From Pseudanabaena frigida (GTDB taxonomy: Bacteria; Cyanobacteriota; Cyanobacteriia; Pseudanabaenales; Pseudanabaenaceae), in NCBI GenBank assembly GCA_003242085.1, contig QBML01000016.1:19950-83949 (forward strand): 64,000 nt of DNA, in the 5' to 3' direction. The first letter of the stretch is position 1. Each line of letters opens with the position of its first letter. Shown here piece by piece: positions 19,631 to 32,456 of the stretch. A model generated the notes under the pieces. It was given only the letters and a program-made list of their open reading frames with translations, was not told the DNA's origin and made no database searches. The position numbers and the translations under genes are program-made.

Positions 19631-20088
19631 GCTTTTGTATCCAGATAATCTAGGTTTTGAAAAAGCTTTTGCCTTTGTTGGGGAATGAGTTCTTAATTTA
19701 AATCGGAAGATTCCATTCAGTCCAGAAACTCATTAATTCACTAGCATAAAATTCTGTATTTCTATTTTGATTTTAGGTAAATCATATAAATTAACCTTGC
19801 AATAATATGTTTGCTGAGAAATAACAAAAAATCAATAGATTAAAGTTATACATAAGTTATACATAAGTTATACGTCTAACACTATATATACGTAGAAGCT
19901 TAAGTAGTTAAATGTGTTTAATTCGCGAACGAAATTTTGTGATTTTGATCGCTGATACTAGTGACAACGATCGCTTATTTAGTGAGATAAAGATCGCTTG
20001 TTTTATACATGTCATATCACTAGATGTGTGAGTAAATAGCAGCATAATATATGCACAATTTATAAGTCTGCTGAAAGGGGGAGAGATT
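19631..20088. promoter_or_regulatory. upstream region of the amino-sugar gene block
   Basis: About 460 bp of AT-rich DNA. It should contain the minus-strand promoter of the nine-gene block and the plus-strand promoter of the small gene at 20089. It holds the second AGTTATACATA tract. No clear operator was recognised. Confidence 0.4.
19844..19873. repeat. 11-bp tandem repeat tract (AGTTATACATA), second copy
   Basis: Same 30-nt structure as 9678-9707: two full units and a partial third, in the same orientation. It lies ~215 bp upstream of the first gene of the amino-sugar block. Confidence 0.85.
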
Positions 20089-20307
20089 ATGACTCCTGTG
20101 CAATTTGAGAGGATTCAAAACATTTTAAATTCCGAACAATTTTGTCTTTTTATTCGACTCAGTAAAATTCGTGATTGGCTTGGTGAATTGTATCTAGAAC
20201 TTGTTTTGTCTCAAGAGGAAATCGAATATATTTACAGTTCAGAAACAGATATTTGCTATGACAAGAGTAAGGATTTAACTAAGCGATCGCGTTATTTTAT
20301 GCGCTAA
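20089..20307 (+). CDS. small hypothetical protein
   Basis: 72 aa, not recognised. A purine-rich GGGGGAGAG stretch precedes ATG 20089, a credible ribosome site. The protein has alternating hydrophobic and acidic residues, no membrane segment and no cysteine motif. It stands alone on the plus strand between two minus-strand units. It may be a real small gene or a chance frame. Confidence 0.45.
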   Translation: MTPVQFERIQNILNSEQFCLFIRLSKIRDWLGELYLELVLSQEEIEYIYSSETDICYDKSKDLTKRSRYFMR

Positions 20308-20359
20308 TGTTTTAGGCAAAATGCATACTCTTGTTTGTAAATATTTGTGTCAAAAGTAT

Positions 20360-22024
20360 TTACTTGAGATTGCGAATAAATTGAATTGCGGATTGACTAA
20401 TACTTAGCTTTTCATCTTCAGGTTTCTTGTCATACGCACTAACCATCAATGAAACTCTTCCACTGTCTATAAAACTTTTTCGATGCTCATTTACGAAATT
20501 CCAATATAGATAGTTAAACGGGCAAGCAGCTTCGCCTGTTTTTTGAGTCACGTCATATTTGCACTGAGAGCAGCAATCACTCATCTTATTGATATAGTTG
20601 CCACCTGCAACATAGGGCTTAGAGGCAAGGATACCGCCATCGGCAAAAGTGGACATTCCTAAAACATTGGGAAGTTCGACCCATTCATAGGCATCGACAT
20701 AGGCAAGCCAAAACCAATGATTTAACTGAATTGGGTTGGTATTAGTAAGATTACTAAAATTGCTCAAGACCATCAAACGCTGGATATGATGAGAGTAGCC
20801 ATAATTAATGACGTTTGTTATGGCATCTTTGAGACATAGTAAATCTGTTTGGGCATCCCAATAAAGTTGTGGCAAATCATTAGTAAATTCAAAGTAATTG
20901 CTATTACGAGCTTCTGGCATTTTTGCTTCATAATAGATACGAACATATTCTCTCCATCCTAGAATTTGGCGTATAAAACCTTCAACAGAATTGAGTGGGG
21001 CTAAGTTTTTTTCGTAGGCAGCGATCGCCATTTCGCATAGTTCTTGCGGCAGGAGTAATCCATTATTGAGATATATAGATAACACTGAGTGAAATAGAAA
21101 TGGTTCGCCTAACTTAATTGTATCTTCGTAAGCTCCGAAACTGGATAAGCGTGTTTCGATAAATAATTGGGCTAGCTCTAGGGCACGATCGCGGGTTACA
21201 GCATAAATAAATTTATCTAACTTCCCAAATGTATTGGGTAGATATTTTTGGACTAATCCAATTACTTCTTGAGTAATGGGATCGGGTTTAGTTTCCGGAA
21301 TTTCTGGAATTACTATCCGTTTAGGTAATGCTTTGCGGTTCTCTTTGTCATAGTTCCAATTACCGCCTATGGGCTTACCATCTTGCATCAGGTAGCTAGT
21401 CTGTTTTCTTAGTTCCCGATAAAAAGTTTCTAGACGATAACCTTTTTTGATTTTAGGCTTAAATTTCTCAGCATCGGCAATGAAAAATTGATTAGGTAAA
21501 GCCTTAATACGATTACCAAATATATTCGCTAAAGTTGACATCTGCGATCGCGTATCCCACTCAGACGGCAGCATATAGATTAATTCTATATTTGCGTAAC
21601 ATGCTAAAAACTCTGCTAAAGCATCCGCATAAAAGCTTTCGGTGAATAGATTAAAAACGAGAAATCCCTTCTGATAACAGTTAATTGCAAAGTGTCGTTG
21701 AGCGCTCAACATATAAACTAGTTTCTGTTTGTGGTGTGGGATGGCGGTCGCGTAGGCTAGAGATTCGACAAAGATTAAAAGTGGTTTACTATCGAGTAAC
21801 TCTTTAGGGAAGGCATCAAGATTCAGTTGGTCATGGAGAATAAATAAAGCGCGATCGCTATTTGCTATCTGTTTCTCTAGTCTTGATGAGATTGGGTAAT
21901 TATTAATCTGTGAAAGAAACTCGCGAGCATTCTCGATCATACTAATTTTAATTTGTATATTATTTAAAAAATTAAAACTCATGAGCTGATAGATACTAAA
22001 GCTAATAAATATCCAGAGTTTCAT
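20360..22024 (-). CDS. cryptochrome/photolyase family protein, FeS-type (DPRP)
   Basis: 554 aa from ATG 22024. Starts at 21982 and 21940 are possible and would remove a hydrophobic N-terminus; none has a strong ribosome site. The DPRP-type N-terminal region holds the FILHDQLNLDAFP block near residues 60-72, and the C-terminal helical region binds FAD. Four Cys in YINKMSDCCSQC...EAACPFNYLYW (near residues 480-510) match the iron-sulfur ligands of FeS bacterial cryptochromes and (6-4) photolyases. Likely role: light-driven repair of (6-4) photoproducts or blue-light sensing. It stands alone, with no regulator beside it. Confidence 0.87.
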   Translation of the reverse strand: MKLWIFISFSIYQLMSFNFLNNIQIKISMIENAREFLSQINNYPISSRLEKQIANSDRALFILHDQLNLDAFPKELLDSKPLLIFVESLAYATAIPHHKQKLVYMLSAQRHFAINCYQKGFLVFNLFTESFYADALAEFLACYANIELIYMLPSEWDTRSQMSTLANIFGNRIKALPNQFFIADAEKFKPKIKKGYRLETFYRELRKQTSYLMQDGKPIGGNWNYDKENRKALPKRIVIPEIPETKPDPITQEVIGLVQKYLPNTFGKLDKFIYAVTRDRALELAQLFIETRLSSFGAYEDTIKLGEPFLFHSVLSIYLNNGLLLPQELCEMAIAAYEKNLAPLNSVEGFIRQILGWREYVRIYYEAKMPEARNSNYFEFTNDLPQLYWDAQTDLLCLKDAITNVINYGYSHHIQRLMVLSNFSNLTNTNPIQLNHWFWLAYVDAYEWVELPNVLGMSTFADGGILASKPYVAGGNYINKMSDCCSQCKYDVTQKTGEAACPFNYLYWNFVNEHRKSFIDSGRVSLMVSAYDKKPEDEKLSISQSAIQFIRNLK

Positions 22025-22569
22025 TCAGCTTCCCACTTAAAATTACTACAGCCTGAGCTGTTACTTCTTGGAAACCGCCAAAATCACTAATTTGCTATTT
22101 TTCAACCGTTTTTCTAGATTATTATGTAGTTCCATAACGATCGATTCGTTCTAAAAATTTAACATCTATTTCAACCATACGAATTTTAATTACTTAATTT
22201 AAAGTAAAACATTATCTCCTTTGAACTTTCTGAATACTTCAATTTCTTTACAGAGTTGGTGTAAATTATATCTAAATTCTCAAAGTTTTATCAATTGTCA
22301 AACTAAAATACTGATTTTACGTGGAAGGAATTTCTGCAATAGCAAAAGTCTAGGGCTGGCACGGGGGCGCAGCCCCTACAGAATCTAAATTGTTGGGGTA
22401 GGGGCAATCCCCCCGTGCCAGCTCTGTCACGCTAGCTGCAAGAGATTCATGATCTGAGTTCCACGGAACATCAGTTAATAAAGTAAAACATGGCACTTCA
22501 AAGATCTAACGAAATATAAAGGTAATTCATGAATTGTCTCTACCGATCCAAAACAAACCTTTCAAGTAG
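22025..22569. other. intergenic region with a repeat element
   Basis: About 545 bp between the photolyase start and the DUF486 gene stop. Apart from the 68-bp inverted repeat at 22355-22422, I see only AT-rich sequence with no convincing gene or RNA. Confidence 0.5.
22355..22422. repeat. 68-bp imperfect inverted repeat (GGCACGGGGG type)
   Basis: 25-nt arms beginning GCTGGCACGGGGG and ending GCCCCTAC, separated by an 18-nt AT-rich centre. Only a few inner bases mismatch. It is far more GC-rich than its surroundings. Elements of this sort recur in cyanobacterial intergenic DNA and look like non-autonomous mobile repeats; it encodes nothing. Confidence 0.75.
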
Positions 22570-22902
22570 CTATTTGATGGCGATCGCAAACCACACCGCT
22601 ACCATCATTAATGCAAAGGCAACTACATAATTCCACTTCAAGCTTTCACCTAAAACGATTACCGCAAAAGCAATGAAGGTCAAAATCGAGATTGCTTCTT
22701 GGATTAGTTTTAACTGTGTGGCGGTAAATTCCCCATAACCCCAACGATTTGCAGGTACTTGAAAACAATATTCAAAAAATGCAATTCCCCAACTTGCCAA
22801 AATCACGAATAACAAAGATTGATTTTGAAAAAACTTGACATGCCCATACCATGCAACGGTCATGAATATATTTGAGCAAATTAATAAGATAACTGTGAGC
22901 AT
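22570..22902 (-). CDS. DUF486 / DMT-like small membrane protein
   Basis: 110 aa with four hydrophobic segments. The stretch FEYCFQVPANRWGYGEFTA is typical of the DUF486 family of small drug/metabolite-transporter-like proteins. Function unknown. It follows the M3 peptidase gene on the same strand, but a strong hairpin lies between them. Confidence 0.85.
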   Translation of the reverse strand: MLTVILLICSNIFMTVAWYGHVKFFQNQSLLFVILASWGIAFFEYCFQVPANRWGYGEFTATQLKLIQEAISILTFIAFAVIVLGESLKWNYVVAFALMMVAVWFAIAIK

Positions 22903-22911
22903 AGTATCGGT

Positions 22912-22950
22912 TTAGAATAAAGGCGTTGCTATGCAACGCCTTTATTCTAA
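22912..22950 (-). terminator. terminator of the M3 peptidase gene
   Basis: 18-bp perfect arms around a 3-nt loop, ending next to the M3 stop codon (22952) and 10 bp before the DUF486 start. A- and T-rich outer stem, usable in both directions. Confidence 0.8.
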
Positions 22951-22951
22951 A

Positions 22952-25036
22952 TTAGACTTTAGCTAAACCACTATGACGCAGTAAAGGTGTAGTGCTAGGC
23001 TCGCGTCCTCGGAAGGTTTTGAAGACTTCCATAGGATGCTTGCTACCACCAAGCGCCAAAACTGTATCGCGATAGAGTCTGCCTGTTGAGGCGATCGCCT
23101 TTTCATCTTCGAGTCCAGCTTCTTCAAAGGCAGCAAAAGCATCAGCGCTGAGTACTTCCGCCCACTTGTAGCTGTAGTAACCTGCGGCATAGCCTCCAGC
23201 GAAGATATGACCGAAAGAACAAAGGAAATTATCTTCTGGCAAAGGTGGAATTACCATTGTTTTTTCAGCAAGGCGCGATCGCAGTTGTAAGGTCGTTTCT
23301 GCGCCACCGACTTCATAGCGATGGTGTAACTCGATATCGACGAGGCTGAAATGTAACTGACGCAACATTCCTGAACCACTCATGTAGTTTTTGGAATCAA
23401 TGAGCTTTTGGAAATAGGATTCAGGTAGAGTTTCGCCTGTTTCATAATGTTTTGCCATACCGAACAAGGTAGCGCGATCGTAGCACCAGTTTTCCATGAA
23501 CTGACTGGGAAGTTCCACTGCGTCCCATTCGACATTGTTAATGCCTGAAGCGCCTGAATAATCAACCTTGGTTAACATATGCTGCAATCCATGTCCGAAT
23601 TCATGGAAGAGAGTTTCTACTTCGCCAAAGGTCATCAAACTAGGCTTACCATCGACGGGGGGCGATTGATTGCAAATTAGATAGGCTACAGGTAAACGGG
23701 TAATGGGCTTACCATCTTCGATTACTTTGGCTCGTCCAATGCAGTCATTCATCCATGCACCGCCACGTTTTTCCGCAGGACGACTATAGGGATCGAGATA
23801 AAAATAGGCGATCGCTTCACTACTTTCATCCTGAATCTCAAAGAAGCGAACACTCTCATGCCAGATTGGAGCCTTACCATCCGCAGGCACGACAGTGACT
23901 CCAAATAAGCGCTTCACTAGGGCAAATAAACCTTCAAGAACTTGTGGTAATGGGAAGTAAGGACGTAGCTCTTCAACAGTAAAGTTAAACTTGGTTTCGC
24001 GCTGGCGTTCTGCCCAGTAAGCATTGTCCCAGTGCTTCAGTTCGATAGTTTCACCTTGCGACTTCGCAAATTCCTTTAATTCCGCAAATTCCTCAACCGC
24101 AGCAGTGTAACTTGACTGGCGCAATTCTTCGAGTAACTTCTCAACTGCTTCAACGTTAGGAGCCATCTTACGAGCGAGGCTCAATTCTGCATAGGTAGAG
24201 TAGCCGAGCAAATTGGCTTTTTGTTGTCGCAATTCGAGAATGCGATCGATCAATGGTGAATTATCAAACTCACCACTGGCGGCACGACTAACGAAAGCTC
24301 GATATAGCTTTTCACGCAAATCGCGGCGACGGCTATGCTGCATAAAGGGAACATAGCTGGGATAGTCGAGGGTAATGCACCAAGATCCATTTTCAGGTGT
24401 GGCTTTGTCATCACCATCTAAACGAGCAGCTTGTGCGGCTTGGGCAAGGAGACTAGGAGGCAACCCTTCGATTTCTTCGGGTAAAGTCAAAGTCATGCTA
24501 AAAGCCTTAGTAGCATCTAGAACATGATTGGAAAAATTAGTGGAGAGTTCGGCGAGTTCCATTTGGATTTTATTGAACTTCTCTTTCTCTGCACCTTCTA
24601 AACCAACGCCCGATAGCTCAGCATCACGGATCGCGGCTTCAACAATACGTTTTTGGGCAGGTTCGAGGCTATCCCAACCTGAAGATCCATAAATTGCTTT
24701 ATAAGCCTTATAAACTGGTTGGCTTTGGCTAAAGCGGTTAAAAAACTCAATAACTTTGGGTTGCACAACTTTATGGGCTTCGCGCAATTCAGCACTATTT
24801 TTAACGCTCAGTAGATGCTCGATCGCACCCCAGCCCCAGCCAATGCGTTCAGTCAGACGCTCTAGCGGCTCGACTAATCCAGCCCATGTAGGCTGGATGT
24901 TGGCTTCAAGTTCAGTCAATCCAGCGCTCGTTTCTTCAAGCAGTTGTGTAATTGCTGGAATGACATGCTCTGGTTTAATCTCTGGAAATGGTGGTAAACC
25001 TTTGCCAATTAAGAGAGGATTAGAAACTTCGCTCAT
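22952..25036 (-). CDS. prlC: M3 family oligopeptidase A
   Basis: 694 aa, the usual size for oligopeptidase A. The zinc site is TLFHEFGHGLQH (HExxH near residue 480), with a downstream Glu expected in the NVEWDAVELPSQ segment. The C-terminal half aligns with the thimet-oligopeptidase fold (MSGSGMLRQLHF, GYAAGYYSYKWAEVLSAD). It is cytosolic and degrades short peptides, including cleaved signal peptides. Single-gene unit with its own terminator. Confidence 0.93.
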   Translation of the reverse strand: MSEVSNPLLIGKGLPPFPEIKPEHVIPAITQLLEETSAGLTELEANIQPTWAGLVEPLERLTERIGWGWGAIEHLLSVKNSAELREAHKVVQPKVIEFFNRFSQSQPVYKAYKAIYGSSGWDSLEPAQKRIVEAAIRDAELSGVGLEGAEKEKFNKIQMELAELSTNFSNHVLDATKAFSMTLTLPEEIEGLPPSLLAQAAQAARLDGDDKATPENGSWCITLDYPSYVPFMQHSRRRDLREKLYRAFVSRAASGEFDNSPLIDRILELRQQKANLLGYSTYAELSLARKMAPNVEAVEKLLEELRQSSYTAAVEEFAELKEFAKSQGETIELKHWDNAYWAERQRETKFNFTVEELRPYFPLPQVLEGLFALVKRLFGVTVVPADGKAPIWHESVRFFEIQDESSEAIAYFYLDPYSRPAEKRGGAWMNDCIGRAKVIEDGKPITRLPVAYLICNQSPPVDGKPSLMTFGEVETLFHEFGHGLQHMLTKVDYSGASGINNVEWDAVELPSQFMENWCYDRATLFGMAKHYETGETLPESYFQKLIDSKNYMSGSGMLRQLHFSLVDIELHHRYEVGGAETTLQLRSRLAEKTMVIPPLPEDNFLCSFGHIFAGGYAAGYYSYKWAEVLSADAFAAFEEAGLEDEKAIASTGRLYRDTVLALGGSKHPMEVFKTFRGREPSTTPLLRHSGLAKV

Positions 25037-25201
25037 AAATAATCTTTAAGATTTGTAAATATCTAGTTTGATTATATATCAACCTAGGTGTGGCTATAGC
25101 AATCCTGATTTTCAGACCATTTTGCTTTCGTTTGGTCGATATTGTTTTAGGTAAATCAGAACTAGTAAATTTATGGAACATTAACATTTCTGCGTTTATT
25201 C

Positions 25202-26593
25202 CTAAGAAGCGACATACTCAAGAGCCAGCCTAAAAGCTTGAATTTCTTTTTCTGAATTTGGAAACCAAAAATCTCCATCTCCTGTGTCTTCTGGCTCATA
25301 TAGAAGAATGGGCTTTTCAAGTATAACGGGATTGCTTATTTCAATACACCAAGCATCACATTCTGAAAAACCACATTGCCGTCTGTATGCATCTAGGTCA
25401 TCTCCCCAGCCATGAGCTTCCTTATCAGCAGCAAAGCTATCTTGATCGTACTTATAAATATTATCGACATTAACCCATCCTTGAAGCGCATGAGCAGGAA
25501 AATTTTCTTCGTCAAGACCAATTTGTCCTAGAAGTTCTAAGCTTCCCTGTTTCAATTTAGTGGTGAATTCTGGTGATACATCTTCGTAAAAGCTAAGAGT
25601 ATGAATCAAGAGCCTATCTCTATACTTAACTCCAAATTCAGTCATACCAAAAGTTACGAATTTAGTGTGTTCACCAGTTAAGAGGAAAATAGAATCATCT
25701 GGATAAAGAGACAGGGCTAAATGTCTGGCAACTCCTCTCTTATCACGAACTGATAATTCTTTTGGATTAGTTGCTAGTACATTGGTATAGAACTGTTCTA
25801 TATACTCAGAAAATTTAACAGTTTGTGTTCTATATTTTTCTGACAATCTGACTAAAGTTTTTAAATAGTCAGACTTGGACGCGGACATAAAACCAAATCC
25901 AAAATTACCACAGTATTTTTTGAATACATTGAAATCTTCTGAATTTAATAACTGAGGAGGATTAACTACCCAACCATTACCAAATGCACTGTAAATCATC
26001 TCTCCTTGCAGATTGGTTTCTGACTCTTCAGATATAGTTTCCACTTCTTCAATAATAAACCTATACATGAGATAGTATTGTTTAGGATTTTTTCCAATAC
26101 CAGCTATTAAAAATACTGTGTCTCCTTTTGCACTGAGAATAGCCCTCTTATCTGTAGATATACTTGAAAAAGCATCATCAATGTCTACATCTAAATTGTT
26201 AGAATCATCGAATATACTTTCAGCAGGTATATATCCCAATTTGTCACAGTTATGATACTGTATCCAAAATTTCGGTTCTATTTTGTCAACTGATTTTTTC
26301 TTTCTTGCTGGAGTCCAGATATTACAGTTATATTCTGGATTAATTTTATCAATCCAATACTGCTCCCTAATCAATAAGTCATTTTCAGAACATTCTTCAA
26401 TAATCTCAAATTTGAACTTGATTAATCCGTACTTCAAGAAAGCCGATCTAAGAGGATAACTACCTTGCTGAAGTGCAGTTTCTCTATTTAATCCAGATTT
26501 ATGTTTTCTCCATCTTTTCTCGATATTGCGAGACTGCCCTATGTAAGATTTGCCATTTACTTGATTGACTATTTGATAAATACCGCAAGTCAT
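25202..26593 (-). CDS. GIY-YIG nuclease fused to probable PUA-like (EVE/ASCH) domains
   Basis: 463 aa. Residues 1-95 are a complete GIY-YIG domain: GIY at 4, YIG at 17, Arg in RNIEKRW and the metal Glu in LLIREQYWID. The remaining ~360 residues are unfamiliar. Residues ~110-240 (starting WIQYHNCDKLGYIP, with a KGDTVFLIAGIGK strand) have a beta-rich look reminiscent of EVE/PUA domains. Residues ~345-460 (ALQGWVNVDNIYKYD, HGWGDDLDAYR, WCIEISNPVIL) recall an ASCH fold. These assignments are pattern-based and tentative. Such folds can read modified bases, so a modification-dependent nuclease or an RNA-processing enzyme are both possible. No methyltransferase is adjacent. Confidence 0.7.
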   Translation of the reverse strand: MTCGIYQIVNQVNGKSYIGQSRNIEKRWRKHKSGLNRETALQQGSYPLRSAFLKYGLIKFKFEIIEECSENDLLIREQYWIDKINPEYNCNIWTPARKKKSVDKIEPKFWIQYHNCDKLGYIPAESIFDDSNNLDVDIDDAFSSISTDKRAILSAKGDTVFLIAGIGKNPKQYYLMYRFIIEEVETISEESETNLQGEMIYSAFGNGWVVNPPQLLNSEDFNVFKKYCGNFGFGFMSASKSDYLKTLVRLSEKYRTQTVKFSEYIEQFYTNVLATNPKELSVRDKRGVARHLALSLYPDDSIFLLTGEHTKFVTFGMTEFGVKYRDRLLIHTLSFYEDVSPEFTTKLKQGSLELLGQIGLDEENFPAHALQGWVNVDNIYKYDQDSFAADKEAHGWGDDLDAYRRQCGFSECDAWCIEISNPVILEKPILLYEPEDTGDGDFWFPNSEKEIQAFRLALEYVAS

Positions 26594-26685
26594 TTGAATC
26601 TCTAAAGTTAAAAATATATGATTTTAAAATAATCTTAATCTAAAAATCTATTTAACGCCAGTTCGGTATAATGTTTTGTTCTAAA

Positions 26686-26731
26686 AGTGCGGGATAAGCC
26701 AAGAACTTGAGTTCTTGGCTTATCCCGCACT
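26686..26731 (-). terminator. terminator of the peptidase M28 gene
   Basis: 22-bp perfect arms around a 2-nt loop, 5 bp past the M28 stop. It ends the mnmE-uma2-recQ-M28 run and separates it from the GIY-YIG gene. Confidence 0.8.
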
Positions 26732-26735
26732 GACG

Positions 26736-27578
26736 TTATTTAAGAGATGTAATTCCTGTGATTAAGCCTTGGCAGACATTAGTGAGAAATTCTAAATCGA
26801 GAGTCTCTAGGCGATCGCTACTTTTGTGATAGTGAGGATTTCGCATATTCGCGGTATCGGTAATCATCAAAGCTTTGTAGCCAGTATCCCAAAAAGGAGC
26901 GTGATCGCTACGTCGAGTGTCGGGGATTGCTAAGCCTCGCCAACCTGCGGGAAGCCATTCACAAGGAACCATAGATTTCATGTGACGTTGTAAATGAATC
27001 AGTTCGGGAATCGTGGGAATGCTGCCAATCAAGCCAATAAAGTCGCCTGTATTGGGATATAACTTGTCTAATCCTGAGGGATAGTGTTGTGAATTGGGGG
27101 TGCGATCGCAATAGCCCAACATCTCTAAGGAAATCATTAGACGTATTTTTTGTTTTTCCTGTTTAAGCTTCTGAGCATAAGCGGCACTTCCCAATAAGCC
27201 ATATTCTTCCATATCAAAAGCTATTAATTGAATAGGATATTTAGTAGGATGTGTAGATAGATATTCAGCCAATTCTAGAAGTACCGCAACTCCTGAACCA
27301 TTATCATCTGCACCCACACAACCAGGAACAGTGTCGTAATGTGCGCCAATAATCAGAGGCGATCGCTGTTTACTATCTTTAGCCGCAATTTGTAGAATTA
27401 AGCTTTGATGCTTATTGCCATTGACTTCAAACTCATGGGTGGTAACTTCTCCGAATTTGGCAAAATGCGATCGGATATATTCACGCGCAAATAAATGTCC
27501 AGCCGAGGCATAGTAAGGATTGCGCTCTATGACGATTTTTTCGAGATGGTTGAGTAAGCGCTCTTGAAGTTTTCCCAT
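26736..27578 (-). CDS. M28 family metallopeptidase (aminopeptidase)
   Basis: 280 aa. M28 zinc ligands are visible: GAHYDTVPG (His, Asp), GADDNGSGVAVLLELA (bridging Asp), AFDMEEYGLLGS (Glu pair) and a C-terminal His in NPHYHKSSD. No signal peptide is evident, so a cytosolic role is likely. The start lies 15 bp after the recQ stop, suggesting co-transcription with recQ. Confidence 0.88.
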   Translation of the reverse strand: MGKLQERLLNHLEKIVIERNPYYASAGHLFAREYIRSHFAKFGEVTTHEFEVNGNKHQSLILQIAAKDSKQRSPLIIGAHYDTVPGCVGADDNGSGVAVLLELAEYLSTHPTKYPIQLIAFDMEEYGLLGSAAYAQKLKQEKQKIRLMISLEMLGYCDRTPNSQHYPSGLDKLYPNTGDFIGLIGSIPTIPELIHLQRHMKSMVPCEWLPAGWRGLAIPDTRRSDHAPFWDTGYKALMITDTANMRNPHYHKSSDRLETLDLEFLTNVCQGLITGITSLK

Positions 27579-27592
27579 TGCCTTTTTGAAAA

Positions 27593-29818
27593 TTATAGAG
27601 GTTCTTTTTCGTTTTGCCAGATGGCGCGGATGATCTTAATTTCATCGTAGGTATATTCTTCGCGCAGGTGATCGAAAAGATTTCGGAGGGAATCACCACC
27701 GATCGCATCTAGCGCTTCATAAATTACAGTTTGACGCTCTGGAGCTACAAGACGATCGCAATTAATCGCATAGCCAGACTCCACTAATTGCACGAGATGT
27801 GTCCAGACAGTCGCAGGTTTGAGTCCGCGATCGCGAGCAATTTCATCGATATCTAAGCCGTTCTCATACATCGCCAAAGTTTCACGCTGTGTACTTGCTT
27901 TTGATAGTTTTGATTTTGGTGTGGATTCCTGTTTAACTCTAGAGGGACTTGCTTCAGTAGGTTCTGCAGGAGGATATTTGAGATGGTGTTCGAGAATAAT
28001 TGCAATAAAATCATCAGCATATTGTTCTAATTTCTTCGCCCCAACTCCTGATAGTTTGGCAAAATCCTTGCGACTTGTCGGTTGCTGCTCTGCCATTTGA
28101 TTGAGCGTCGCATTGCTAAAAATGACATAGGGAGGAACTTCCTGCTCATCAGCAAGGTTTTTGCGAAGTAGTCGCAATCTTTCAAAGAGAATGTCCACAT
28201 CAACAGATCTTTCTTTTGCATCTTCGCGATCTGCAACGCTTGCAGGTTCAACATCACGTTCGATCGGTAATAGCACATTGCGCTGATTTCGCATGACTTC
28301 CCAACTGCGATCGTTGAGTTTGAGAATGCCGTAGCCATCCGTTGTCTGGGTTAGAAAACCTTGATGAATTAGCGATCGCGAAAGTTGCCGCCATTCATCG
28401 AGACTACGATCTTTGCCAATGCCATAGGTAGTGAGTTGATCGTGATGGTGTTGCAATACTTTCTCTTTGCGGGAACCTCTCAAAACGTCGATGATATGCC
28501 CTGCTCCAAATCTTTCTTTGGTTCTTGCTACACATGATAAGAATTTTTGTGATTCCACCGTCCAATCTTCCATTGGCTTAGGTGTAAGGCAGTTATCACA
28601 ATTAGCGCAATCACCATGAAAATTCTCACCAAAATAACGTAAGAGAATCGTGCGGCGACAGGCTATACCTTCGGCATAGTCTACTACTTGGCGCAATTGC
28701 TGTTGAGCAATTCTTTGTTCTGCTTCTAATGGTTCATTGGTATGCGGATCTACTTTCTGGGCAATGAGATACTTGATCGTCTCTAAATCTCCATAGCCTA
28801 AAAATAAAGTACAGTGAGATTCTTCTCCATCGCGACCTGCTCGACCTGACTCTTGATAATAGCCCTCAATATTTCGCGGTAAATCATAATGGATTACGAA
28901 TCGCACATCGGGTTTATTGATCCCCATCCCGAAGGCAACAGTGGCAACCATTACCTGCACATCGTCCCTAATCCACCGAGTTTGATTTTCTTCCCGTTCC
29001 TTATTGCCTAATCCTGCATGATAGGGAATTGCTTCGATGCCATCTTCGCGGAGGCGACTGGCTATCTCATCTACCCGTTTGCGACTGAGACAATAGACAA
29101 TTCCTGAGCCTTGTAGTCGCTTAATTTGATGTAAAAGATTAATATAGGATTGTTCATTACCTTGCTTAGGAATAACTTCGTAATAGAGATTAGAACGATT
29201 GAAACTTGCGACATGGATATAGGGCTGCTTTAGTTCTAATTGTTGGCTAATATCTTCACGTACTCGCTCAGTTGCTGTGGCAGTTAAGCCAACCATCGGT
29301 ACATCAGGATAAATTTGCCGAATCCGACTCAGTTGGCGATATTCGGGGCGAAAATCATGCCCCCATTCCGAAACGCAGTGAGCCTCATCGATCGCAAATC
29401 CCGCAATGCCAATCTTATTCTTAACAATATTCAGAAATTCGAGAAACTGCTCGGCAAATAGACGTTCGGGCGCAATATAGATTAACTTAATTGCGCCATT
29501 GAGAATTGCTTGCGATCGCTGATTGCTTTCTCTTGCTGATAGTGTGCTATTGAGAAATGTTGCCCCAATTCCATTCTCTTTAAGTGCTGTAACTTGATCT
29601 TGCATTAAAGCAATTAACGGCGAAACGACAATCGTTACACCCGTTTTTAGTAATGCAGGTAATTGAAAACAAATCGATTTACCGCCACCCGTAGGCATAA
29701 TCGCCAGAGTATCGCGTCCTGCCAGACTCGCCTCAATAATCTCGCGCTGACCTGCCCGAAAAGATTCATACCCAAAATATTGTTTCAGCGCTTGCTGTAG
29801 AGGATCGCTATTTGTCAT
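27593..29818 (-). CDS. recQ: ATP-dependent DNA helicase RecQ
   Basis: 741 aa. Helicase motif I is MPTGGGKSICFQLPA (near residue 40) and motif II is IDEAHCVSEWGHDFRPEY. Motif VI lies in YYQESGRAGRDG. The zinc-binding region has CRRTILLRYFG followed by CANCDNC. An HRDC domain is present near residues 525-605 (AKLSGVGAKKLEQYADDF), then a winged-helix-like tail (TLAMYENGLDIDEIARDRG). This is the full RecQ layout; the protein unwinds recombination and fork structures. It is 3 bp downstream of the Uma2 gene. Confidence 0.95.
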   Translation of the reverse strand: MTNSDPLQQALKQYFGYESFRAGQREIIEASLAGRDTLAIMPTGGGKSICFQLPALLKTGVTIVVSPLIALMQDQVTALKENGIGATFLNSTLSARESNQRSQAILNGAIKLIYIAPERLFAEQFLEFLNIVKNKIGIAGFAIDEAHCVSEWGHDFRPEYRQLSRIRQIYPDVPMVGLTATATERVREDISQQLELKQPYIHVASFNRSNLYYEVIPKQGNEQSYINLLHQIKRLQGSGIVYCLSRKRVDEIASRLREDGIEAIPYHAGLGNKEREENQTRWIRDDVQVMVATVAFGMGINKPDVRFVIHYDLPRNIEGYYQESGRAGRDGEESHCTLFLGYGDLETIKYLIAQKVDPHTNEPLEAEQRIAQQQLRQVVDYAEGIACRRTILLRYFGENFHGDCANCDNCLTPKPMEDWTVESQKFLSCVARTKERFGAGHIIDVLRGSRKEKVLQHHHDQLTTYGIGKDRSLDEWRQLSRSLIHQGFLTQTTDGYGILKLNDRSWEVMRNQRNVLLPIERDVEPASVADREDAKERSVDVDILFERLRLLRKNLADEQEVPPYVIFSNATLNQMAEQQPTSRKDFAKLSGVGAKKLEQYADDFIAIILEHHLKYPPAEPTEASPSRVKQESTPKSKLSKASTQRETLAMYENGLDIDEIARDRGLKPATVWTHLVQLVESGYAINCDRLVAPERQTVIYEALDAIGGDSLRNLFDHLREEYTYDEIKIIRAIWQNEKEPL

Positions 29819-29821
29819 AAA

Positions 29822-30511
29822 TTAGGATTTTGCAAAAGTCTGTAATAACCATCGGGCGATCGCACCATCATCTTCATCTTCTTGACTACGCTTTAATGCT
29901 GCTTCAACTATGCTAATTTCCAGTCCTTCGAGAACTTGTGATTGTGTAATTCTACCACTGCGACCATCGGCGATCGCAAAAGCAAATACTTCTGATGTAT
30001 TGGCATTAACAGCCCAATATTCCCGAACTTCTAAACGTTCATAGAGCAGTCTTTTATAACTCAAATCATCTTGAATAGTGGTTGCAGAAATTTCTACAAC
30101 GAGGGTTGGCAAATCAAACTCATTTAGATCAACTGGATAATTGTTCCTAGGCGGAATTTTTAATCCATTACCTAGGTAAAAAACTATATCTGGCTGAAAT
30201 TCAGCGCTATTCTTTTTTCGAAAACTACAGTTGGTATACTCATAGATAGTGATGTTGGCAAGAGTAGCAAATAGTCGAATTACGTTAGAAACAATTGAGT
30301 TCTCATGGGCATGAATTGGTCCAACGGGTGACATTTCAATCCTCATTAAATTCTGGTCATAATAAAATCTAGCCTTATCTAAGTTTGGCTCTTCAGAAAG
30401 AGCTAGAAATTCATCCCAAGAGGCTTTTACCCAAAGATCGGAAACAATTTCTGGTTTGACTTCTACGTTATCTTCTGTATCGTTTACCTTTGTGCTAACC
30501 GTAATAGTCAT
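29822..30511 (-). CDS. Uma2 family (DUF820) putative restriction-like nuclease
   Basis: 229 aa. The PD-(D/E)xK-type core of the family is visible: FQPDIVFYLG (Asp) and PTLVVEISATTIQDDLSYKR (Glu plus downstream Lys), followed by the VREYWAVN block. Uma2 proteins are numerous in cyanobacteria and their roles are mostly unknown. The stop is almost against the recQ start, so it may simply share a transcript. Confidence 0.88.
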   Translation of the reverse strand: MTITVSTKVNDTEDNVEVKPEIVSDLWVKASWDEFLALSEEPNLDKARFYYDQNLMRIEMSPVGPIHAHENSIVSNVIRLFATLANITIYEYTNCSFRKKNSAEFQPDIVFYLGNGLKIPPRNNYPVDLNEFDLPTLVVEISATTIQDDLSYKRLLYERLEVREYWAVNANTSEVFAFAIADGRSGRITQSQVLEGLEISIVEAALKRSQEDEDDGAIARWLLQTFAKS

Positions 30512-30583
30512 AATTAGTCCAGTTAGTTTTTATGCTTGATGATTCTACTATATCAAACGTCAGGAAGCATAATTGATGCAGTA

Positions 30584-31963
30584 TTACTTGCCAATACAAA
30601 ATCGACTAAAGATTTGATCGAGAACAGATTCAGTCACTTCTTCGCCTGTAATCTCACCGATCGCACTAATGGCAGCTCGCAAATCAATTGTCCAGAAATC
30701 AAGAGGTAATCGATCGGCGATCGCAATTTGAACATTAGCCAAAGATTGCACAACCCTCATCAAACAGGCTTTTTGGCGCTGATTGATTGCTACATCAAGA
30801 TTTGCGGCGGCGATCGCATCTTGCTGAATACATTGCAAAATTGCTGTTTCTAAATCATCAATTCCCTGTTGTTGAGAAGCCGCAGTTTTGACAATGGGAA
30901 GATTTTCTTTCCCTTGCAGAAGATTTGGATTCGAGGATTTGTCAATTAAATCGATCTTATTTATCACTAAAATCACAGGGCGATCGCTTACACTTTCATA
31001 GATCTCTGTATCTTGCTCAATCCAACCAACACTCGCATCGATTACCATCAAGACTAAATCGGCTGACTTGGCAGCTTGACGCGATCGCTCCACACCAATT
31101 TTTTCTACAACATCTTCAGTTTCCCTAATACCCGCTGTATCGAGAACTTGAATGGGAATACCACCCACTACTAACTGCGAATCTACGACATCGCGAGTTG
31201 TTCCAGGTAAATCTGTTACGATCGCCCGATCGCTACGACTCCAAGCATTCAGTAGACTCGACTTGCCAACATTGGGACGACCCATGATCGCCACTTTTAG
31301 ACCTGTACGTAACAATTCGCCGCGATCGGCTGTCGCTAAAATCTGTTGCGATTCTTTCGATACTATGTCAATTTCGGTTTTTACCCATTCCACATCAAGG
31401 GGTGGCAAATCATCTTCAAAATCGATCCGTGCCTCTATTTCAGTTAAAAGATTAAGACATTTACCCCTTAAATACTTGAGAGATTGGGCTAGCTTACCCC
31501 GTAACGAAGCGATCGCCGCCTGCGCCGCTTGAGCGGATTTCGCGCCGACTAGATCGTTAATACTTTCTGCCTGCGTGAGATCGATTCTGCCATTGAGAAA
31601 TGCCCTGAGGCTAAATTCTCCTGCCTCCGCCAGTCTAGCGCCATGCTCTAAACATAGATTTAACACCTGTTGCACTGCCATGATTCCACCATGACAGTGA
31701 AATTCCACCACATCTTCACGGGTAAAAGAACGAGGAGCTTTCATCAATAGCAATAGGCTTTCATCTACTATTTCCCCAGTTGAGGGATTTCTCACATAAC
31801 CATAAAGAATGCGATGACTTTCCCAAACCTGCTTACCCCCTGCATTAAAGATTTGCTGAGCGATCGCCACGGCGCGATCGCCTGATAGTCTGACAATACC
31901 TACACTTCCCTGCTGCGGAGAGATAGCTGTGGCGATAGCGGCGATCGTATCAGATAGACTCAT
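30584..31963 (-). CDS. mnmE: tRNA uridine-5-carboxymethylaminomethyl modification GTPase
   Basis: 459 aa. An N-terminal folate-binding-type domain ([24 protein letters not shown]) is followed by a helical region with an inserted G domain: [17 protein letters not shown] and NKID. The C-terminus is the family CIGK, whose Cys is required for activity. With MnmG it modifies the wobble uridine of certain tRNAs. It is the first gene of the minus-strand run mnmE-uma2-recQ-M28. Confidence 0.96.
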
Positions 31964-32456
31964 TCGTAATTTTTCTGGAATTAAACATACATAGAAACAA
32001 CATTACAGTAATTCCCATCACGTATGGCTTATGCATGATGACAATCCTAAATGAGTACAGAGCATTTTGACTGCACTCAGCTAGTGCGATCCCCTAGCTG
32101 AGCGTAGTTAACGCCCAATCCAAATATACTGATTATTTCAGATCGCTCTATAGCAATTCAAACCTCAAATAAATAAAGGCGGCACTTTGCGCCGCCTTTA
32201 TTTATTTGCTTAGATGATTACTGATTTGGCGCTTGACATAGAGCAAAACAAACTTTCATTAATTTTTTTGCCAAGCTTTGCTTCTTAAGACTTAAAATTG
32301 AATTAAGATATACTTAATTGCTGGATTAAAAATTAAATCTCAACTAGATTAGAGTAAAGAATCATTTCTACGAAGTTAGGGGGATGAGCAGAGGTTCCAA
32401 ATTTATACGTTTATTGTCGGTCTTAAGATCGATTTTGCATCTGGGATTTTTAAACT
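31964..32456. other. divergent intergenic region with hairpins
   Basis: About 490 bp between mnmE (minus) and the hybrid kinase (plus), so it must hold both promoters. It contains a decayed CTCAGCTAG...CTAGCTGAGCGTAG palindrome near 32076-32108 and a strong hairpin at 32166-32208. I see no gene. Confidence 0.5.
32166..32208. repeat. terminator-like hairpin in a divergent promoter region
   Basis: 18-bp arms (CAAATAAATAAAGGCGGC and complement) around a 7-nt loop. It resembles the bidirectional terminators elsewhere in the window but has no gene end beside it; both flanking genes point away. Confidence 0.65.

Follow-up and report, generated by a model that had tools for sequence, protein, structure and literature searches.

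A GIY-YIG nuclease joined to an unnamed domain and an ASCH-like domain in Pseudanabaena frigida, a candidate single-gene restriction-like defence enzyme

The locus considered here raises the question of what purpose a GIY-YIG nuclease serves when the rest of the protein, residues 100-463, matches no family in Pfam, NCBIfam, PADLOC or PHROGs. It was analysed in a 64,000-nucleotide stretch of Pseudanabaena frigida DNA, hereafter the window, where the gene forms an open reading frame with an ATG start, 463 codons and no internal stop. Its closest full-length relative is a protein of Anabaena subtropica FACHB-260 (L001), with 48% identity over residues 1-459, and three modules can be delimited along the protein, namely D1, D2 and D3 (Table 1). 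On the strength of sequence comparison, we consider it best explained, with a probability of about 0.55, as a single-gene restriction-like defence nuclease in which D2 and D3 would choose the target. AlphaFold models computed with L001, either for the whole protein (mean pLDDT 38.3) or for D3 (43.5), are too poor for a reading of the fold.

Table 1. Location of the gene, its modules and the surrounding insertion in the window
Feature	Residues	Window positions	Strand	Basis
Whole gene, GIY-YIG - D2 - D3 (ASCH-like), 463 aa	1-463	25202-26593	minus	ORF and full-length relative L001
D1, GIY-YIG nuclease domain	1-98	26300-26593	minus	PF01541, TIGR01453, I-TevI chains, alignment
D2, unnamed domain	~106-262	25808-26278	minus	stand-alone and fused homologues
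D3, divergent ASCH-like (PUA superfamily) domain	~288-459	25217-25732	minus	stand-alone copies and hhalign to ASCH
Islet, inserted segment of ~1.65 kb without counterpart in relatives		25083-26733	none	flank spacing in congeners, GC
Perfect 22-nt inverted repeat, right islet edge		26686-26731	none	genus-wide dispersed short repeat

The earlier note had read the N-terminal part as a GIY-YIG nuclease with the expected catalytic residues, and this was borne out. D1 is matched by Pfam PF01541 over residues 3-89 (E = 5e-14, over the family cut-off), by NCBIfam TIGR01453 over residues 4-96 (80.4 bits vs. a cut-off of 56.05) and by the I-TevI domain structures (chains 1mk0 and 1ln0, about 1e-8). The motif residues, read directly from the protein, are G4-I5-Y6, Y17-I18-G19, R27, H31, E77 and N89, whose catalytic role we take to be the one they have in I-TevI. 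In an alignment of eight proteins, including that of the window, GIY, YIG (YVG in two of them) and R27 are present in all eight, and E77 and H31 in seven each, with Q in L003 and D in L128, respectively. D1 belongs to the GIY-YIG superfamily, and more precisely to the I-TevI/intron-endonuclease kind, with the predicted catalytic Y, R, E and N present. Its nearest kin are the group I intron and homing endonucleases (TIGR01453, phrog_314 and the I-TevI chains), so that the earlier statement that the remainder of the protein is unlike a homing endonuclease stands for residues 100-463, where no family matches, and cannot be extended to D1. In phage records and viral contigs, the part in common with the window protein is the GIY-YIG domain only.

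The kinship of D1 is also the first argument for a freestanding homing endonuclease, an explanation according to which the GIY-YIG domain would cut the empty allele, D2 and D3 would be new sequence-specific DNA-binding domains and repair would copy the gene in. The insertion itself points the same way. The islet has a GC content of 0.343, vs. 0.463 and 0.421 for the flanking genes, and its intergenic site is empty in six of the 23 other genomes of the genus (G009, G021, G002, G020, G023 and G010), where the flanks lie 29-84 bp apart, as expected of a clean insertion. As for the other genomes, the gap between the flanks holds a 361-aa membrane-type ORF in G022 and G012 and an unrelated 211-aa ORF in G014, and in the remaining 14 the flanks lie apart or one of them is absent. 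D2 was found in none of the 25 other genomes of the genus (D3 only, or GIY-YIG alone in two). The window gene travels as a lone insert and is sporadically distributed. Two of its relatives moreover look as they would in a homing cycle, L127 being interrupted by a stop and L003 lacking E77. Against homing, neither an intron nor any other catalytic RNA was found by Rfam in positions 20000-32000 of the window, no NUMOD or HTH match was obtained with Pfam in the protein, and the relatives occupy many different neighbourhoods. Homing also leaves unexplained the copies of D2 that have no GIY-YIG domain, whether in a helicase/methyltransferase operon or fused to NOV_C. We regard it as the main rival of the defence explanation, though a rather unlikely one.

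Between 20 and 32 kb of the window, the gene is surrounded by those for an M3-type peptidase, for an M28-type peptidase, for RecQ, for a Uma2-type protein, for MnmE and for a photolyase-like protein (names given by eye). No cognate methyltransferase was found among them, so that the locus would suit a type IV (modification-dependent) enzyme more than a type II pair of the classical sort.

The earlier note had also perceived two PUA-like stretches in the C-terminal part, an idea that finds support for D3, which aligns with ASCH, and none for D2, which resembles neither EVE nor ASCH. When D3 was compared by hhalign with seven cyanobacterial ASCH proteins, a score of 32.5 was obtained (P = 1.7e-4, probability 49%), and none of 100 column shuffles reached it (maximum 22.1). 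This set, in which L070 and L071 are identical or nearly so, was preferred after the values of the other sets were known, an earlier three-sequence set having come from a faulty motif filter. The other values were P = 0.0032 with three close sequences, 0.012 with ten mixed ones, 0.77 and 0.35 with a second ASCH group (ASCHB), and 0.093 with three sequences chosen by the wrong motif filter. Since the accepted ASCH and EVE groups themselves give, with the same method, P values from 1e-4 to 0.74 depending on the set, the D3-ASCH value is among the better ones. The low-stringency alignment runs end to end and is colinear from ALSL/ALSI via the YR..LLIH block onwards; D3 is thus alike to ASCH in profile and in the order of conserved blocks, but does not retain the GxKxxExR-like block seen in the ASCH relatives. 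No direct Pfam match of D3 to ASCH (PF04266) was obtained, and its best PDB match (E = 0.18) is at the level of chance. As a whole, this moderate score makes D3 a putative divergent ASCH domain of the PUA superfamily.

D3 also exists as a stand-alone protein of ~190-220 aa. In a survey of 58 genomes, source genome included, it was found in the latter, in 24 of the 25 other genomes of the genus, in six of nine other genomes of the family and in none of 23 outside the family; in a wider sample, the D3 profile matched one of 146 genomes, i.e. the source genome only. As stand-alone D3 is near-universal in this bacterial family, defence is not necessarily the role of the domain by itself. One stand-alone copy (L023:5845-6474, on G000:C33) lies beside a creatininase-type gene.

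ASCH and PUA domains often bind RNA, and D3 could accordingly belong to an RNA- or tRNA-directed nuclease, acting as a toxin-like effector or in abortive infection. In keeping with this, small genes resembling HigB or antitoxins were recognised by eye near some relatives. However, GIY-YIG domains of the I-TevI-like kind act on DNA, no antitoxin-like partner of at least 80 aa adjoins the window gene, and stand-alone D2 accompanies DNA-type systems. An RNA target is, in our view, improbable.

D2 is marked by the stretches FWIQYHN...LGY, GDTVFLIAGIG-KNPKQYYL and GNFGFGF. Its homologues are either stand-alone, as in G036 (L009) and on the Polaromonas plasmid pA29BJ2 (L098:11971-12405), or fused (L001, L003, L126-L131 and L139). 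Given that a 142-aa stand-alone gene of G036 matches residues 108-260, and that G041 has a GIY-YIG-D2-TPR architecture, D2 is separable from both ends of the protein. Up to E = 10, Pfam gave no EVE match (PF01878) in the window protein. By hhalign, D2 obtained P = 0.46 against 24 EVE sequences and P = 0.59 and 0.37 against two ASCH sets, vs. P = 1e-4 for EVE against ASCH with the same method; the deep alignments comprised 26 non-redundant sequences for D2 and 18 for D3. An identity of D2 with EVE was rejected on this profile comparison, with the reservation that the EVE set is mostly of one conserved kind. No known PDB fold was found for D2 either, the best matches being to terminal transferase at chance level (E 0.2-0.35). 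Likewise, no winged helix match was found in the window protein, and no description of D2 was found in searches of open-licence PMC papers on GIY-YIG fusions and modification-dependent restriction.

The spread of D2 was followed with several profiles. The first one, built from four sequences, matched one of 386 phylum genomes and two of 144 relatives of G036. A tblastn search with the 142-aa gene of G036 retrieved the Polaromonas plasmid (32% over 89% of the query, E = 9e-3), whose 144-aa protein aligns with D2 along its length. With five sequences, weak matches appeared in genomes of family f28, which we infer to be Nostocaceae-type, and led to proteins of ~280 aa that are GIY-YIG-like and D2-like. 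Seven of the nine foreign matches were read (L104 and L106 were left out), four belonging to this second GIY-YIG family and three being seemingly unrelated. The comparison of D2 with the D2-like part of the second family gave P = 6.7e-7 in hhalign, with none of 100 column shuffles as high; this homology is partly circular, since the proteins were collected with the D2 profile, and the independent part of the link is the GIY-YIG-like domains found on them.

An eight-row profile gave 29 places in 25 of 217 genomes of family f28, among which the profile rows L001, L103, L105 and L107 were re-found by construction. Four of these places are GIY-D2-D3 (including the broken L127), three GIY-D2, one D2 without nuclease and one D2-NOV_C, while the second GIY family with D2 accounts for 13, plus two fragments, and a third GIY family with D2 for four; L153 was left out of the reading. 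Applied to the phylum sample, this profile had matches in nine of 358 genomes, of which one was as weak as 8.6e-4. In the second and third families, the GIY-YIG parts are under Pfam's cut-off, though the motif is visible. As for the NOV_C (DUF3883) domain fused to D2, it is matched by PF13020 at E = 1.6e-15, and the NOV_C stretch of this protein (in G599) is similar to the C-terminal ends of TmtA, HmaA and PD-T4-1. Judged from the sequences, D2 is therefore a module with changing nuclease partners, i.e. three GIY-YIG-like kinds and NOV_C, and is also found alone. Among plasmids, neither D2, nor D3, nor the second family retrieved anything beyond the query's own plasmid; there was also no match in phages with the Polaromonas D2 protein, nor in viral contigs with D2 or D3.

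Fourteen neighbourhoods of D2 relatives were examined (L001, L022, L024, L098 and L154-L163). Defence-type neighbours were found in four of them (L022, L154 and L155 by PADLOC, L156 by its likeness to L155), restriction-type genes in L098 and L162, and, by eye, housekeeping surroundings in the other eight, a tally that is no enrichment test because only some neighbours were scanned. As to whether homologues sit in defence islands, D2 relatives lie in or beside defence-type genes in some genomes, but most look like lone inserts amid housekeeping genes.

One of these loci is that of G036, where the stand-alone D2 gene (L022:10067-10495) starts 7 bp after a gene for a DrmD-like SNF2 helicase (2e-199), and a gene for a DrmMI/IIG-like methyltransferase begins 33 bp beyond its end. 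Genes further downstream code for a Uma2-type protein (by eye), a DruE-like protein of 1914 aa and a helicase resembling UvrD/GajB. The core genes of DISARM are drmA, drmB and drmC; on the G036 contig, the DrmD-like and DrmMI/IIG-like genes are present (PADLOC on six proteins, the rest by eye), and a match to DrmD or DruE in PADLOC points to the family of a helicase without proving that a system is there. In G605, a GIY-D2-D3 gene stands beside a PDC-S02 (YhcG) gene (PADLOC), and likewise in G600 beside a gene of the PDC-S02 (YhcG) type, with integrase and partition genes nearby (by eye). The D2-NOV_C gene of G599 (L154:8746-9585) comes directly after a nifD-like gene and near a PDC-S37/Hhe gene; by eye, it sits in an apparent insertion, possibly a nifD excision element carrying a PDC-S37/Hhe-type helicase. 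The D2 gene of the Polaromonas plasmid has RES, DUF4145 and type I restriction genes in its vicinity.

Two relatives were seen, by eye, directly downstream of uvrA: a GIY-D2 gene (L158:8557-9429) and a D2 remnant (L160:7622-8119), which has a GQGG-repeat stretch in place of the nuclease part. They would suit a DNA-repair nuclease for damaged DNA, of UvrC/Cho-like type, but one of the two is devoid of its nuclease part. Moreover, the UvrC match of the window protein amounts to just 11.1 bits, and a sporadic spread (9/358 genomes of the phylum sample) is unlike that of a repair gene. A repair function appears very improbable, and both the repair and the RNA-directed explanations are weaker than homing.

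Three genes are near pheS or a cluster that follows it: GIY-D2(-D3) genes lie beside pheS in G619 and G605 (L157:2351-3748 and L172:217-1053), and a second-family gene (L161:8318-9133) is found near the surE-ribF cluster, which follows pheS in G619. The pheS area in G619 and G605 is possibly a recurrent insertion area.

Taken with the sporadic spread, the exchange of partners and the position between helicase and methyltransferase suggest that D2 is a specificity module of restriction-like defence. The low GC content of the islet and the empty sites of congeners are also in keeping with the defence explanation. In the restriction-like defence nuclease that we favour, the N-terminal GIY-YIG domain, given its family and intact residues, would cut DNA, and D2 and the ASCH-like D3 would bind DNA and license cutting only where they encounter a given feature, most probably a base that is modified in invading DNA, or another DNA state. 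More tentatively, D2 may be a reader common to unrelated defence enzymes, i.e. at least three GIY-YIG kinds, a NOV_C (DUF3883) nuclease and a SNF2-helicase/methyltransferase system. The DNA modification or state that it reads would then be one for which no reader is known so far, and D3 would act as the second reader of the longest form. Several points count against a defence role: D1 is nearest to homing endonucleases, the window copy and most relatives have housekeeping neighbours, D2 is tied to no known reader fold, and the D3-ASCH score is moderate (49%).

The working mode would be like that of CMoRE, EVE-GIY-YIG or wH-GIY-YIG enzymes. In PMC12923530, CMoRE (PD-T4-3) is described as a type IV single protein with an N-terminal GIY-YIG domain and a C-terminal modification sensor, the sensing part being without known homologues. 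The window protein has the same plan, a single chain with an N-terminal GIY-YIG domain and then a putative sensing part without known homologues, but differs in size and putative sensing domains, and its GIYQI lacks the third tyrosine of the CMoRE motif GIYxY-YIG given in that source. The PADLOC scan of the window protein gave no match to the PD-T4-3 family, which is possibly absent from the library. EVE-GIY-YIG fusions, as well as a stand-alone EVE gene with a SNF2 helicase-nuclease and a methyltransferase, are reported in PMC7641849; the former recall the window protein in joining GIY-YIG to a domain of PUA-superfamily type (here D3), and the latter recalls the D2 gene of G036, although the window protein has no EVE match in Pfam or profile comparison. 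PMC11037411 presents wH-GIY-YIG enzymes as 6mA-dependent, with the same reader on PD-(D/E)XK, HNH, PLD and GIY-YIG nucleases, which parallels a putative reader domain joined to GIY-YIG and common to several nucleases; their reader, the winged helix, is however another domain than those of the window protein. I-TevI-type homing endonucleases (TIGR01453) have a similar nuclease domain, but the window protein has D2 and D3 in place of an intron or NUMODs. The general plan, GIY-YIG plus sensor, is thus already in print, and D2 would be the new recognition part. Single-gene anti-phage enzymes that join a GIY-YIG nuclease to a sensor form a class that is still emerging, and a new sensor module recurring on different nucleases would help in finding further members and might provide a reader of modified bases that is itself new.

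Two repeats were observed around the gene. Many genomes of the genus contain the core of the 22-nt inverted repeat found at the right islet edge, a REP/MITE-like dispersed element. Further away, at window positions 22352-22425, an intergenic 28-nt inverted repeat, 82% complementary and with a loop of 18 nt, coincides with Rfam matches at 22349-22427 that are far under the gathering score (a plant miRNA model, weak, on both strands), and is probably a hairpin repeat.
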